A stretch of 53,636 nt of DNA from an uncultured Clostridia bacterium (GTDB lineage Bacteria; Bacillota; Clostridia; Christensenellales; Aristaeellaceae), in the NCBI GenBank assembly GCA_946413245.1, contig CAMKJS010000013.1:1-53636 (forward strand), written 5' to 3'. Positions 2,512-7,176 of the stretch are shown one piece after another. Each line of letters opens with the position of its first letter. Position 1 is the stretch's first letter. The notes under the pieces are model-generated. The model did not search any database, was not told the origin of the DNA, and worked only from the letters and a program-made list of their open reading frames with translations. The position numbers were made by a program, and so were the translations under genes.

Positions 2512-3765
2512 ATGAAACAAAAAATGATCGCTGTTCTCTGCATCCTGACGGGCTTTTGCCTGATCTGCGGAAGCCTGCTGCTGGCAGGCACTGCTCCTTT
2601 TTTGAGATCAGCCGCCGCGTCTGATACCAGCGAAGAGGGAGATCTCTCCGGCACGGTGACGATCTCCAGGGAAGAGTACGAAACGCTGAAGCAGTTTTCC
2701 GAGCTTGCTGAACTGCTCCTGGAGACGGATCTGTATTTTTATAAGGAAACCGACCGGGAGAAGCTGCTGCAGTATGCCGCCAAGGGGCTGATGGCCGGGC
2801 TGGACGATCCGTACTCCTTCTATTATACGCCGGAAGAATTCGCGAAAATGTGGGAGGACGACGAAGGAAAATACGTGGGGATCGGCGTACTGATCTCCGC
2901 GGACTATACGACGCAGATCTGCACGATCAGCCGGGTCTTCAGCGACAGCCCGGCCCAGAAAGCGGGCGTACAGCGCGGCGACATTCTTTACCGTGTCGGG
3001 GACGACCTGTATGTGAACGCGGACAATCTGCAGGACGCGGTGAATATTATGCGCGGACTCCCGGATACAGACGTGGAGGTCACTTTCCTGCGCAAAGGGG
3101 AAGAGGTTACCTTCACGATTACCCGTGAGATGATCACGGTAAACCAGATCGAATACAGCATGCTGGATTCGAAAGTGGGATATATCGCTTTCTATCAGTT
3201 CGCCGGCGAAGCCGAAATCGAGTTCGAGAACGCGCTGAACCAGCTCCTCGCGGAAGGAGCGGAAGGTATTATGATCGACCTGCGCGACAATCCCGGCGGA
3301 TGGGTCAATCAGGTGCAGTATGTGGGCGACCTTTTCATGGACGAAGGGGAAGTCTGCTATCTGGTATACCGCAACGGGGAAGAAAACCATGCGGAATACC
3401 GTACGAAGGACGGAAAAACAGACATTCCGCTGGTGATCCTGATCAACGAGAACAGCGCAAGTTCTTCCGAAATCCTTTCCGCCGCACTGAAGGAATGCGC
3501 CGGCGCGACGCTCGTCGGCGTCAAGAGCTTCGGAAAAGGAATCGTGCAGGGCGTCTGGAATGTAGGCACAAAGGGAGCCGGCGTTCAGATGACGGTCGCC
3601 CAGTATTTCACGCCGAAGGGAAACGCGGTTCATCAGGTCGGAATCGAGCCGGACATCGTCGTTCCGCTGCCGGAAGGCGATAACGGAATGTACGAATTTG
3701 CCGATCTTGAAAACGACGTTCAGCTTCAGAAAGCGTATGAGGCCATGCTGGAAAAGTTGAAATAA
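2512..3765 (+). CDS. S41-family carboxy-terminal processing protease (CtpA/CtpB-like)
   Basis: The 417-residue protein is an extracytoplasmic serine protease. It has an N-terminal membrane signal (about residues 1-35), a linker helix region, a PDZ domain (about 115-200, with KYVGIGVLI and PAQKAGVQRGDILYRVG) and an S41 catalytic domain. The Ser-Lys dyad is visible as Ser317 in NENSASSSEI and Lys342 in SFGKG, with the 25-residue spacing usual in CtpB. DLRDNPGG precedes it. The enzymes cut or degrade secreted or membrane proteins; in Bacillus CtpB acts in a sporulation checkpoint. The substrate here is unknown. The -35 of the next promoter overlaps its stop codon. Confidence 0.93.
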   Translation: MKQKMIAVLCILTGFCLICGSLLLAGTAPFLRSAAASDTSEEGDLSGTVTISREEYETLKQFSELAELLLETDLYFYKETDREKLLQYAAKGLMAGLDDPYSFYYTPEEFAKMWEDDEGKYVGIGVLISADYTTQICTISRVFSDSPAQKAGVQRGDILYRVGDDLYVNADNLQDAVNIMRGLPDTDVEVTFLRKGEEVTFTITREMITVNQIEYSMLDSKVGYIAFYQFAGEAEIEFENALNQLLAEGAEGIMIDLRDNPGGWVNQVQYVGDLFMDEGEVCYLVYRNGEENHAEYRTKDGKTDIPLVILINENSASSSEILSAALKECAGATLVGVKSFGKGIVQGVWNVGTKGAGVQMTVAQYFTPKGNAVHQVGIEPDIVVPLPEGDNGMYEFADLENDVQLQKAYEAMLEKLK

Positions 3766-3785
3766 CCGATCTTTCATGGTATGAT
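3757..3785 (+). promoter_or_regulatory. Sigma-A-type promoter driving the leader RNA
   Basis: TTGAAA at 3757-3762 (overlapping the upstream stop codon), a 17-base spacer, then TATGAT at 3780-3785 preceded by TGG. Transcription should start near 3791. Confidence 0.8.
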
Positions 3786-3790
3786 ATTCA

Positions 3791-3914
3791 CGGACAGCGG
3801 AACAAAGACTATCCCGCGGGAGCGTCGGAGCGAAACCTGTCCGGTTTCCCGATTGAGCGAAGGGAATTCCTGACGCGAGATGTGAAGGAGGCGAGATTGA
3901 TGATGCTTCTGTTC
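3791..3914 (+). ncRNA. Structured 5' leader with competing helices (possible riboswitch-like element)
   Basis: Between the promoter and the terminator lie about 125 bases rich in complementary segments. A 7-bp helix (3822-3828 with 3870-3876) closes a domain holding a 6-bp hairpin (gaaacc 3832-3837 with ggtttc 3843-3848, five-base loop TGTCC) and a further ttccc/gggaa pairing (3846-3850 with 3862-3866). The loop TGTCC is complementary to GGACA at 3792-3796. The complementarity extends to 7 bp (3791-3797 with 3837-3843), so a pseudoknot or a mutually exclusive long-range helix can form. I compared it by memory with TPP, SAM, lysine, glycine, guanidine, manganese, Moco, THF, ZTP and T-box signatures and saw no match. 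Confidence 0.6.
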
Positions 3915-3926
3915 AGCACGGCTTAG
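3900..3926 (+). CDS. Putative leader peptide MMLLFSTA inside the attenuator
   Basis: The eight-codon ORF begins ATGATG, 8 bases after a near-perfect Shine-Dalgarno (AAGGAGG at 3885-3891), stronger than most in the window. Its TAG stop (3924-3926) lies just past the ascending arm of the terminator stem (3915-3922). A ribosome translating or stopped here would cover that arm and block the hairpin. The peptide has no run of a single regulatory amino acid. Translation is inferred only from the SD, spacing and placement. Confidence 0.5.
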   Translation: MMLLFSTA

Positions 3927-3956
3927 GAGTGTTTTCTTCAGCCGTGCTTTTGTTTG
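3915..3956 (+). terminator. Intrinsic terminator/attenuator upstream of the TM1266-like gene
   Basis: The stem is agcacggc (3915-3922) with gccgtgct (3941-3948), extended by T3923-A3940 and an inner ggag/cttc pairing. It is followed by a ttttgttt tract. It sits 20 bases before the downstream start codon and within the leader of the same transcript, so it can act as an attenuator. Confidence 0.85.
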
Positions 3957-3974
3957 CTTTGGGAGGGAAAACCA

Positions 3975-4250
3975 ATGACTTCCGCTGAGAAGAGAATCGG
4001 TTTTGTCGGAATCATCATCGAACACAGGGAGAAGGTCCAGGAAGTGAACCGGATTCTGTCCCTGTTCGGGGATATGATCCGGGGCCGCATCGGCGTTCCG
4101 AATCAGGAGGATCACACCGCGGTGATCGGCCTGATCGTGGAAGGAACCAACGAACGCGTCGGCGCCCTGACGGGAAAGCTTGGCAATATCCCCGGCATCA
4201 CAGTAAAAAGCGCGTTATCCGCGAAAAAAGAAAGGAATGAAAACCCATGA
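3975..4250 (+). CDS. TM1266-family iron-only hydrogenase system putative regulator
   Basis: The 91-residue protein belongs to the small ACT-like family first seen as Thermotoga TM1266. It is widespread beside [FeFe]-hydrogenase maturation genes. Family features visible are KRIGFVGIIIEHREKVQEVN, RGRIGVPNQEDHTAVIGLIV and LTGKLGNIPGITVKSALS. The molecular function is not established; regulation or small-ligand sensing is presumed. I chose the ATG at 3975, 7 bases after GGGAGGG, rather than an in-frame ATG at 3954, which lies in the terminator T-tract. The gene overlaps the ABC binding-protein gene by ATGA and is controlled by the attenuator. No hydrogenase or HydEFG gene is in the window. Confidence 0.85.
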   Translation: MTSAEKRIGFVGIIIEHREKVQEVNRILSLFGDMIRGRIGVPNQEDHTAVIGLIVEGTNERVGALTGKLGNIPGITVKSALSAKKERNENP

Positions 4251-5167
4251 AAAAAGGATTGATCATATTCACAGCCCTGGTGCTTTGTCTGTTTGTTTTC
4301 TGCGCGGCCACCGCGGAAGATGCGGTCCGCTTCACCGTCGCATCCCCGAACGGCGCTCCCGGCCTCGCGCTGGCGACCATCGCCGCGGAGAACCCGGACA
4401 ATTTCACCTATGTGGCGGCGGACACAATTGCCGCTGAATTCGCCGGGGAAAAGGCTGACTTTATCATTGCTCCGGTGAATGCCGGCGCGAAGCTGTATAA
4501 GGCCGGCAAGTCCACCTACCGCCTGGCTGCCGTGGTGACATGGGGCAACCTCTATATCGCTTCTCAGAAAACAGACTTCAGTCTGAATGATATCAGTTCC
4601 GGAACGCTGACCCTGTTCGGCGAGAACACGATCAACGCTTCGGTGGCGTTGTTCGCCCTGCGTGAAAACGGAATCACCCCCGCCGAAACGGTTTATCTGG
4701 CTGGCGCCGCCAACACGCAGAGCCTGCTGCTTTCCGATCCCGAAGCGATCGTGATTACGGCGGAGCCTGCGCTGACGGCCGCCAGAATCAAGAACGAGAA
4801 CATTACCGCCTACGCGGTGAACGAGCTTTATGAAAAGGCAACCGGTTTCTCCGGCTACACGCAGGCGGGCCTGTTCGTCAAAAAAGAAACAGCTGAACAG
4901 TATCCGGAGCAGGTGAAGGATTTCCTTCTCCTGGCGGCCGAAGCCGCGGAAAAATGCAGCACGGATGTGAACCTTGTGGCCGAAGCCGCCGTGCAGCTGG
5001 AGCTGCTGCCGAATATGAAGGTCGCGACACTGGCGATTCCCAACTGCGCGATCCGGTATCTGAGTGCCGCGGAAGCCAGGAAACAGATCGAAACCACGGC
5101 AAATATCGATCTTCAGCAGTACGGCGGCGCGGTTCCCGAAGACGATTTCTATTATGAGTACGAATAA
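4247..5167 (+). CDS. ABC transporter substrate-binding protein (NrtA/SsuA/TauA-like)
   Basis: The 306-residue secreted protein has a signal peptide (MKKGLIIFTALVLCLFVFCAATA). The mature part has the shape of the NMT1/THI5/SsuA binding-protein group: an early VASPNGAPGLALATIA segment, VAADTIAAEFAGEKADFIIAPVNAG, and YRLAAVVTWGNLYIAS. There is no lipobox cysteine directly at the cleavage site, although Cys18 in FCAATA leaves a lipoprotein possible. The substrate is unknown; relatives bind sulfonates, taurine, nitrate, thiamine precursors or guanidine-like compounds. Overlap with the TM1266-like gene and with the permease gene suggests one translationally coupled unit. Confidence 0.85.
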   Translation: MKKGLIIFTALVLCLFVFCAATAEDAVRFTVASPNGAPGLALATIAAENPDNFTYVAADTIAAEFAGEKADFIIAPVNAGAKLYKAGKSTYRLAAVVTWGNLYIASQKTDFSLNDISSGTLTLFGENTINASVALFALRENGITPAETVYLAGAANTQSLLLSDPEAIVITAEPALTAARIKNENITAYAVNELYEKATGFSGYTQAGLFVKKETAEQYPEQVKDFLLLAAEAAEKCSTDVNLVAEAAVQLELLPNMKVATLAIPNCAIRYLSAAEARKQIETTANIDLQQYGGAVPEDDFYYEYE

Positions 5168-5930
5168 ATACCGAAGTATTACCGCGTTTTCCATCGGGAT
5201 TGTACTGACCGGCTGCCTGATTCAGGCAGCCGGTCAGCTCCGGAACGATCAGCTGGTATTTCCGGGTGTGCAGGAGATCATCCGCGCTTTTTTCAGCCTG
5301 CTGGGGCAGGGGAAAACCTATGAAAGAATCGGAACGACCCTGTTCCATCTGCTGCAGTCCCTGCTGCTTTCCTTCGGGATCGGGGTCCTGATCGGCCTGG
5401 CGGAAGGCTTGTCTGACTGGGTACGGCAGATGCTGAAGCCCGTCATGATCCTGTTCCGGTCGATTCCGATGATCGTGCTGGCAGTTGTGCTAATGGTGCT
5501 GCTGCGCTATGAGCACGTGCCAGCGATCTCGGCGGTGATCATTCTCATCCCTCTGTTTAGCGAAGCTGTCTGCGAAGGATGCCGGAGAATCGATCCCGAA
5601 CTGATCGACGTATACCGGATGAACAGCAGTATCAACGCCACCATTGTTCTGCACGTCTATCTTCCGTCGATTACCGGATATCTGAAGCAGGCGTTTGAAA
5701 ACGCTGCCGGGATGGGCATGAAAGTGGTTGTGTCCGCCGAGTATCTCGTGCAGGCCCGAAATTCGCTCGGAAAAGTCATTTTTTCAGCCGGATATTTCAA
5801 TGAGTATGCCGAGATTTACGCATACGCGCTGATTATGGTTCTTCTGGTGGTGATCGTTTCCGCTGTGCCGGGATTCATTCTGCGATGCGCCTCTTTTTTC
5901 AGGAAGAAACAGGAATCCGGAATTGTCTGA
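5154..5930 (+). CDS. ABC transporter permease (SsuC/TauC-like)
   Basis: The 258-residue protein has about six membrane helices. It carries the EAA-type cytoplasmic loop region (LIPLFSEAVCEGCRRIDPEL) that contacts the ATPase in BPD-type importers. The start ATG at 5154 lies 14 bases inside the binding-protein gene; a longer upstream reading frame would overlap by 100 bases and lacks sense. The gene is followed after one base by the end of a convergent glycosyltransferase gene, so no ATPase gene completes this transporter locally. It must borrow an ATPase encoded elsewhere or be non-functional. Confidence 0.87.
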   Translation: MSTNKYRSITAFSIGIVLTGCLIQAAGQLRNDQLVFPGVQEIIRAFFSLLGQGKTYERIGTTLFHLLQSLLLSFGIGVLIGLAEGLSDWVRQMLKPVMILFRSIPMIVLAVVLMVLLRYEHVPAISAVIILIPLFSEAVCEGCRRIDPELIDVYRMNSSINATIVLHVYLPSITGYLKQAFENAAGMGMKVVVSAEYLVQARNSLGKVIFSAGYFNEYAEIYAYALIMVLLVVIVSAVPGFILRCASFFRKKQESGIV

Positions 5931-5931
5931 A

Positions 5932-7176
5932 TTACCAGGCGGCGATTTCCTTTTCAATCAGATCCGCCGCGACCCGGGTACCGTCCTCCGCGCGAAGCTT
6001 TTCACCGAGAGCCCGCGCGTTTTCACTGTATCGGGGTTTTCCCGTCAGATCGAGAAGGCTTTTCGTCAGGCGCTGAACCGAAAGGCTGTCCCGGGGAACC
6101 GGCTTCGGACCGCAGCCGAGGGAATACACCCGATGACCCCAGAAATACTGATCTCCCGAAAACGGGATCACCAGCGCCGGCTTTCCGAAGCGAAGGCCGG
6201 CGGCCGTCGTTCCCGCGCCGCCGTGATGAATCACGGCGCGGACGCGCGGAAACAGCCAGTTGTGCGGGATATAGTCGGCGAAATATACATTCCGGGTGGA
6301 TTTCAGCTTCGTTCCGCTCCATCCGAGATTGATCACCGCGCGAAGGCCCGCCGCGTGAACAGCGCGGAGCGTCAATGCCATAAGCCGGTTCATATTTCCG
6401 CTGTTCATGGAGCCGAAGCCGATGTAGACGGGTGTTTCTCCGTTTTCCAGGAAATCCTGAAGCGATTCCGGCGGAACCCAGTCCGACGTTTCGGAATCGA
6501 ACCAGTAACCGCTCATGTATATGCGGGAATCCCATTCCGTGGGGCGTGGAAGAACAAGCGGGCTGATGGCATAGATCACCGGGATCCGGTGATCACCGAC
6601 GCGGCAGTCGGGGACCGTAACCAGCTTCCGCTCCTGCAGATGGTTTTCCCGGCGCCAGGAGGAGAGATATCTTTTTTCTACAATACTCATGAAGAGATAT
6701 CCGAGCCGGTAGCTCGCGGAATTCATCCAGGGGGCCATTTTCTGGTTTTTCACCACGGGAATAGGCAGCTTCCGCGTGGGATCCATGGGGAAATAATGCG
6801 TCTGAACGCAAGGAATATTGTACTTTTCGGCAATGGAGTAGTATACGGAACCGAAAAAGCCGCAGACCATGGCGTCGGCGTCGCTGCAGCTTTCGGACAT
6901 GTCATGCAGCAACTGCGGCGCTACGGCCTTCAGCCCTTTCTCCACATGCGGAAGATACAGCCAGCCGCTGGATCCGGGCTGCATGATACAGCTCATCAGA
7001 CGGTCGGCACTTCCGCTGAGCGCGTAAAAATGCAGACCGGCATTTTCAACCAGCTCACGGAACCGGGAAAAGCCGGAAATCGTAATTGCATGCCCGCGGG
7101 ACTGAAGCTCTTTGCCGAGCAGAATATACGGAACGACATCACCGGTGGATCCGATGGTCAGCATCGTTATCTTCAT
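5932..7176 (-). CDS. GT1-family UDP-glycosyltransferase (MGT/sterol glucosyltransferase-like)
   Basis: The 414-residue cytoplasmic GT-B enzyme begins MKITMLTIGSTGDVVPYILL, the acceptor-side signature of the family. It carries the C-terminal nucleotide-sugar site HHGGAGTTAAGLRFGKPA followed by PFSGDQYFWG near residue 315-345. This group transfers glucose or another sugar to lipids, sterols, macrolides or other small acceptors; the acceptor here is unknown. The ATG follows GGGAG and a good promoter lies upstream. It is transcribed towards the ABC permease gene with a one-base gap, and no other biosynthetic gene is nearby. Confidence 0.88.
   Translation of the reverse strand: MKITMLTIGSTGDVVPYILLGKELQSRGHAITISGFSRFRELVENAGLHFYALSGSADRLMSCIMQPGSSGWLYLPHVEKGLKAVAPQLLHDMSESCSDADAMVCGFFGSVYYSIAEKYNIPCVQTHYFPMDPTRKLPIPVVKNQKMAPWMNSASYRLGYLFMSIVEKRYLSSWRRENHLQERKLVTVPDCRVGDHRIPVIYAISPLVLPRPTEWDSRIYMSGYWFDSETSDWVPPESLQDFLENGETPVYIGFGSMNSGNMNRLMALTLRAVHAAGLRAVINLGWSGTKLKSTRNVYFADYIPHNWLFPRVRAVIHHGGAGTTAAGLRFGKPALVIPFSGDQYFWGHRVYSLGCGPKPVPRDSLSVQRLTKSLLDLTGKPRYSENARALGEKLRAEDGTRVAADLIEKEIAAW

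Follow-up and report, generated by a model that had tools for sequence, protein, structure and literature searches.

The locus considered here raises the question of how a short, intergenic stretch of RNA might decide whether a TM1266-like gene and the transporter genes behind it are transcribed. The window, by which we mean the whole stretch of DNA that was analyzed (53,636 nucleotides from an uncultured Clostridia bacterium), places a promoter, a structured leader, a minute open reading frame and a terminator in close succession ahead of this operon. Taken together, these parts probably make up an RNA sensor that acts in cis on an intrinsic attenuator coupled to translation; that is, an orphan riboswitch-like OFF element that gates a mini-ORF. 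The anatomy of the element comes from comparison with relatives, while its signal, its polarity and the action of the ribosome are what we infer from sequence. The parts of the leader are as follows:

3757-3785, + strand: promoter of the sigma-70 type, TTGAAA-17-TATGAT, by direct reading (TTGAAA 3757-3762, TATGAT 3780-3785)
3790-3891, + strand: two-domain structured RNA, the aptamer-like part (matches of covariance models R1 and R2)
3791-3843, + strand: domain 1 (flank-swap test of helix P1; inner-helix covariation)
3791-3797/3837-3843, + strand: closing helix P1 of domain 1, CGGACAG/CTGTCCG, 7 bp
3803-3809 against 3824-3830, + strand: inner part of domain 1, C-AAA-GAC against GTC-GGA-G
3813-3820, + strand: hairpin of domain 1, CCCGCGGG
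3845-3891, + strand: domain 2 (helix 3 of the covariation count, 98.2% of cells paired)
3845-3849 opposite 3887-3891, + strand: outer strands of domain 2, UUUCC and GGAGG
3852-3854/3879-3881, 3855-3856/3877-3878 and 3857-3859/3874-3876, + strand: inner part of domain 2, AUU/GAU, GA/GA and GCG/CGC
3885-3891, + strand: Shine-Dalgarno sequence (SD) of the mini-ORF, AAGGAGG (direct reading; conserved in the alignments)
3900-3926, + strand: mini-ORF, eight codons plus TAG (sequence reading, relatives, shuffles)
3915-3955, + strand: intrinsic terminator, 9-bp core 3915-3923/3940-3948 plus T-tract

The -35 element of the promoter overlaps the final two sense codons of the S41 peptidase gene upstream. 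Among relatives the best -10 element is TATAAT in 40 of 68 leaders, and the best -35 element matches at least four of six bases in 43 of 68. Eight bases separate AAGGAGG from ATGATG (3900-3905), and the codons ATG ATG CTT CTG TTC AGC ACG GCT TAG encode the peptide MMLLFSTA. The TAG (3924-3926) lies immediately 3' of the ascending core arm of the terminator, whose T-tract is TTTTGTTT (3948-3955). A preliminary description of this DNA had located the promoter, the SD, the double start eight bases on and the peptide exactly where they are found here; it had also recognized the terminator, with the TAG just past its ascending arm, but gave the core as 8 bp, one fewer than the 9 counted.

Downstream of the leader, three genes follow on the same strand:

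3975-4250, + strand: TM1266-like gene (PF21699, 93.5 bits; TIGR03959, 97 bits; both above cut-off)
4247-5167, + strand: substrate-binding protein (SBP) of an NMT1/SsuA-type ABC transporter (NMT1 matches of homologues; profile match to PDB 3hn0)
5064-5930, + strand: ABC permease (PF00528, E 5.5e-11); true start uncertain, listed start overlapping the previous gene

The TM1266-type assignment made in the preliminary description is borne out by both family models. The hydrogenase connection drawn there holds for the family name of this first gene and for nothing beyond the name, because transporter genes follow it in the family loci: an SBP related to that of the window stands beside TM1266 in 30 of 30 loci of the window's family (L005-L034), and a permease in 29 of 30, the remaining locus (L017) being cut by a contig end. 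A further set of loci (L075-L084) is left uncounted, as nine of them were taken to be the same contigs as L005-L034 loci. Both transporter genes are absent, at E 1e-4, from 13 loci with a more distant TM1266 (L085-L097). The SBP of the window itself has no Pfam match at 0.001; its homologues in L077, L079 and L084 match NMT1, and a profile built on five homologues finds PDB 3hn0, named a nitrate transport protein, at 1e-23. Gene context was considered as a guide to the ligand, and NMT1/SsuA-like SBPs and the 3hn0 match proved too general to name a cargo. The importer of the window (4247-5930) consists of SBP and permease with no adjacent ATPase; an ATPase does lie next to the importer in L077, L080, L083 and L084, unlike in the window. 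The next gene, on the opposite strand (5932-7176), is a glycosyltransferase that resembles rifamycin/macrolide-type families, far below their curated cut-offs.

Of 300 genomes from the window's family, 146 encode TM1266 homologues. A best match of E <=1e-20, our definition of a close orthologue, is reached in 74 of them; the other carriers are one genome with a split orthologue (G248) and 71 whose best match lies above 1e-16. Upstream regions were collected for 70 of the 74 close orthologues (L005-L074), and later for the last four and G248 (L116-L120). At E <=0.01, covariance model R1 matches 68 of the 300 genomes, namely 67 of the 74 with close orthologues and G248, most of the matched leaders being R1's own sequences; it matches none of the 71 family genomes that have only a distant TM1266. 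A single match is found in 65 of the 68 genomes and a second, weak one (L121-L123, E 0.002 to 0.005) in three. The seven close orthologues that R1 misses are L030, L037 and L043, which reach 31 to 36 bits in a direct search, and four leaders of genus g15. The g15 aptamer is highly diverged (R1 scores L118 at 19.2 bits and passes over L072, L116 and L117); by eye, all four g15 leaders nevertheless show an ORF of 8 or 9 codons, in one case with a GTG start, that ends at the terminator arm.

Judged by these searches, the RNA appears to be found only in the window's family, with convincing matches nowhere else in the samples of its order, class and phylum. At E 0.01, and under stricter filters that lose weak matches, R1 matched 13 of 396 genomes in the order sample, all of the window's own family; one of 391 in the class sample, the window's own genome; and three of 398 in the phylum sample, its own genome and two weak matches (E 0.0046 and 0.0096), about what chance would give. 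A DNA similarity search with the leader in 150 genomes returned, beyond the window itself, three short weak matches. R1 finds no leader at the 13 loci with a more distant TM1266, most of which carry names of other taxa (L095 is possibly from the window's family), nor upstream of the distant TM1266 genes L124, L125 and L126, the first two of which look leaderless by eye. The named relatives are Clostridia MAGs, several of them from deer, sheep or horse gut.

Single-sequence folding statistics of the window leader are uninformative, as its folding energy is unremarkable against shuffles (z -1.13 for 3787-3953 and -0.47 for 3787-3890), and a signal appears only across relatives. Alignment A1 comprised 62 of the 70 orthologue upstream regions fetched by then, excluding L029, L030, L032, L037, L043, L064, L065 and L072 as divergent, odd or mis-segmented. 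On these 62 aligned leaders of the window's family, RNAalifold returns 17 pairs, 14 of them with compensatory change; 95.4% of cells are paired, versus 76.5% in shuffles. Covariation scores 0.530 on the real alignment, while shuffles give 0.195 and slid partners 0.047 to 0.091. Since the structure came out of the very alignment on which it was counted, and relatedness is lost in the shuffles, it is a held-out test that matters here. Model R2 (A3/R2) was trained without the window's genus (g1), on 45 of the 47 remaining A1 rows, the near-copies L054 and L067 being excluded. It finds the window at 3790-3891 with 33.7 bits and E 2e-5, and 14 of the 15 leaders of the genus, window included, at E <0.01, the fifteenth (L010) at 0.045; these E-values are rough because calibration was short. 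R1, which has the window among its sequences, matches the same segment at 57.5 bits. The claim of a structured RNA thus holds in both the 62-leader covariation and the genus-held-out model.

Across genera, domain 1 consists of P1, then an internal loop of AAA opposite nGA between CC/GG and GCC/GGC pairs, and a hairpin whose shoulders read AAGYG and CRUGA in many genera; the window has GAC/GUC in place of the usual inner pairs. P1 is too variable for alignment and was examined by swapping flanks among leaders: own flanks give a mean of -11.5 kcal/mol, versus -7.6 (sd 0.3) for swapped ones, a value that none of 200 swaps reaches. Taken singly, just 18 of 62 flanks come out among the top 5% of swaps, the median rank being 0.14. 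In the window's genus domain 1 is less regular, since RNAalifold on the 15 leaders of that genus alone returns domain 2 only. Domain 2 across relatives comprises a C- or U-rich strand (CC, CUCC, UUUCC), NUUGA, a variable helix and RAGAUGnGAAGG, which runs into the SD; the g30 counterpart of this last element is RAGAGCGAAAGG. This architecture differs from the two-state switch proposed in the preliminary description, between a 6-bp hairpin with loop pairing and a 7-bp long-range helix: what covaries is P1, the inner helices and a separate domain 2. The 7-bp helix does exist, but as P1, which closes domain 1. No TTCAC/GTGAA outer helix was seen by eye in the alignment of relatives. As far as sequence can tell, the element has the general hallmark of a riboswitch, a conserved and covarying structured 5' leader in cis to transport genes.

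The relatives keep not only the helices but also the SD, the short ORF and the terminator, as would be expected had the preliminary description read the leader correctly. ORF counts refer to 68 of the 70 leaders (L029 and L072 were excluded, and both read by eye). In 41 of 68 leaders an ATG begins 7 or 8 bases downstream of the SD (22 and 19, respectively), while any other offset between 0 and 44 accounts for 0 to 7. In 35 of these 41 the first in-frame stop follows after 7-9 codons; in either other frame this is true of none of the 41. The combination is therefore present in 35 of 68 leaders; in 500 dinucleotide shuffles it turns up in 0.2 leaders on average and never in more than 2. The ascending arm of the terminator holds the first in-frame stop in 39 of the 68, its loop does so in 4 and its descending arm in 1, and in 4 the stop comes after the terminator; of the remaining leaders, 19 have no ORF closing before the TM1266 gene and in 1 no terminator was found. 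The script that locates these stops also accepts other starts near the SD, and its 39 include the three-codon ORF of L052. A short ORF ending in or beside the ascending arm, as had been claimed, is thus the usual arrangement. Six of the 41 leaders do not stop after 7-9 codons. The mini-ORF reads through the whole terminator in L012 and L019 (by script; both among those six) and in L032 (by eye), and the first ATG of L025 also reads past it. No ORF is present in the g16 leaders L047 and L057, and none of the usual kind in L014, L026 and L032.

The peptides themselves are diverse. In a manual selection of 47, which draws 39 from the group of 41 whose ATG lies at 7 or 8 bases, adds eight others and leaves out the read-through cases, 44 are distinct, no residue occurs in more than 29 and no run is longer than two. 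Neither conserved regulatory codons nor a stalling peptide, by which amino-acid or antibiotic leader-peptide attenuators are recognized, was found among these 47. The constant features of the mini-ORF are its SD, spacing and stop position; because the peptides are diverse and not conserved, it is the position of the ORF, and not its amino acids, that matters.

The terminator and mini-ORF are the conserved parts of the putative expression platform, and masking of the SD is predicted, weakly overall. In the window the predicted SD partner is UUUCC 3845-3849, with a mean pairing of 0.99 in the truncated leader, which agrees with the maskable SD put forward in the preliminary description; outside the window the predicted pairing is weak (median 0.34 over 68 leaders). 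The energy of own anti-SD/SD pairs is -3.97, versus -3.77 (sd 0.08) for cross-genus swaps, of which 3 of 300 reach it, so that this control shows a small effect only. Sliding the anti-SD gives -1.95 to 0.63 kcal/mol at eight usable offsets, against -3.97 at the true position; the other four of the twelve offsets returned placeholder energies and were excluded.

Genus g30 is a clade in which 17 leaders lack the usual mini-ORF: in 16 the stretch 3-17 bases downstream of the SD contains no ATG, and L052 has the three-codon ORF. In these genomes the terminator arm, GGACGCAU (or GGGCGCAU), has its complement in a strand of the domain 2 hairpin, AUGCGUCC (or ACGCGUCC). With arms located by pattern, the complementarity between this loop and the 5' arm of the terminator amounts to -12.8 to -17.2 kcal/mol in 17 of 17 ORF-less leaders, seven of which have ACGCGUCC and so lose one of eight pairs. 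The same complementarity is weaker, -6.0 to -10.0 kcal/mol, in all five ORF-bearing g30 leaders. Two further g30 leaders (L119, L120) look alike by eye. As g30 is a single clade, this amounts to a strong hint of an exchanged expression platform and not to proof; the loop-terminator pairing may reflect inheritance within one genus. In some ORF-less g30 leaders (L040, L041, L056) a frame from an internal TTG or ATG crosses the terminator towards the TM1266 start, a through-frame that by eye is inconsistent across the genus. Since most g30 members have no such ORF, translation cannot be the sole way in which the element works.

A mechanism that joins these parts can be proposed. Domain 2 would be stabilized by some signal, probably an ion or small molecule with a connection to the transporter's cargo; the SD would then stay paired with the CC/CUCC/UUUCC strand, the mini-ORF would go untranslated, the terminator would form and the operon would be off. 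Without the signal, domain 2 would open, and a ribosome could initiate, reach the stop codon on the ascending arm and cover that arm; RNA polymerase would then continue into the TM1266 and importer genes. A ribosome footprint at the stop codon would cover the ascending terminator arm. In g30 leaders without an ORF, unfolded domain 2 could block the terminator directly by RNA pairing, with the same OFF polarity. That the operon includes an importer is consistent with its being turned off by the importer's cargo or product.

Other readings of the same leader deserve to be weighed. The TM1266-like protein might bind the RNA and control access to the SD, as ribosomal proteins do in their own leaders. 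The RNA is indeed tied to one gene family (67 of 74 genomes with close orthologues versus none of 71 with distant ones only), generally occurs once per genome (65 of 68) and has convincing matches confined to one bacterial family. However, its link with the operon's ABC genes is just as tight and therefore does not point to TM1266 in particular, and we know of no RNA binders among TM1266-like proteins; such autoregulation therefore seems unlikely to us, if the least unlikely of the alternatives. Classic leader-peptide attenuation, with particular codons of the mini-ORF serving the ribosome as sensors of charged tRNA or an antibiotic, would agree with a short ORF that overlaps a terminator. We regard this as very improbable: no residue is common to all 47 peptides and no run among them exceeds two, a covarying RNA lies upstream of the SD, and a ribosome completing the mini-ORF would block the terminator, not permit it.

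It could also be that the RNA fixes how strongly the mini-ORF is translated, either constitutively or in dependence on temperature or stress, and that the attenuator responds to ribosome availability, with no specific ligand. SD spacing and stop position, the most constant features, would suit such a role, and the gene context indicates no ligand; yet two domains with conserved internal loops, retained in members that have lost the ORF, argue for specific recognition, and we give this reading only a slim chance. The preferred reading remains a ligand-responsive sensor that gates the mini-ORF. A stronger form of it, in which the element represents an undescribed riboswitch class with a sequence-free minimal ORF as platform, an aptamer-gated SD and the ribosome as antiterminator, and in which one clade swapped the ribosome for RNA pairing while keeping the aptamer and OFF logic, is tentative, its chances falling slightly short of even.

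The RNA matches no class in Rfam at the gathering score. An Rfam search had been set beforehand as the test that could overturn the claim that no known riboswitch has this layout, and release 15 gave no match at gathering over the whole window. Under permissive thresholds, only chance-level matches below gathering were obtained in window positions 3500-4200; none of 30 relative loci had a match at gathering, the closest on a leader being atoC (32.8 against 50, L025), and the 13 loci with a more distant TM1266 had no leader match at gathering. The T-box family has no match at the leader. On the other strand of L045 (420-601) there is a T-box-like RNA, cut by the locus end, with 55 bits against a gathering threshold of 93. 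No description of the RNA was found in the open literature, as covered by titles and the starts of abstracts, and the main texts of the structured-RNA discovery papers searched contain zero mentions of TM1266 or hydrogenase.

Riboswitches are usually classed as either transcriptional or translational in their action. If the proposed mechanism is true, this element joins both modes: whether a disposable ORF is translated would determine whether transcription continues past an intrinsic terminator. The many orthologues and the natural ORF-less clade make it a ready test of platform change under a kept aptamer, and the element offers a route to the cargo of the TM1266-linked ABC importer and to roles of TM1266 outside hydrogenase clusters. 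In leader-peptide attenuators of the trp and erm types, the position of a ribosome decides whether a terminator forms, through codon sensing or stalling; the window element would share the dependence on ribosome position, but here the sequence of the peptide is free.

Several described systems share individual parts of this arrangement. In the odc1 motif a structured RNA sequesters the ribosome-binding site of a short uORF; that motif has a conserved 11-residue peptide and two adjacent start codons, belongs to alphaproteobacteria, and is presented in the relevant passages with no terminator described (PMC8632094). The fthC uORF motif has an SD-like region and AUG between hairpins, a stop often in a stem and a terminator-like third hairpin, but precedes another gene and is reported from Streptococcus only; a response to the speed of translation initiation is suggested for it, and the passages that describe it include no aptamer (PMC11109978). 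The B12 riboswitch of Mycobacterium tuberculosis ppe2 is likewise described as an OFF switch whose aptamer masks the SD of a uORF, with uORF translation required for translation of PPE2 by termination-reinitiation (PMC11260477); here, by contrast, the ORF overlaps an intrinsic terminator. A further likeness is to the M. tuberculosis pe20 Mbox, a riboswitch reported to control both translation of a small upstream ORF and Rho-dependent transcription termination, through a known Mg2+ aptamer and with a uORF described as highly conserved (PMC12810186). The window element differs from it in pairing an undescribed RNA and an unconserved peptide with an intrinsic terminator that carries the stop codon in its arm.
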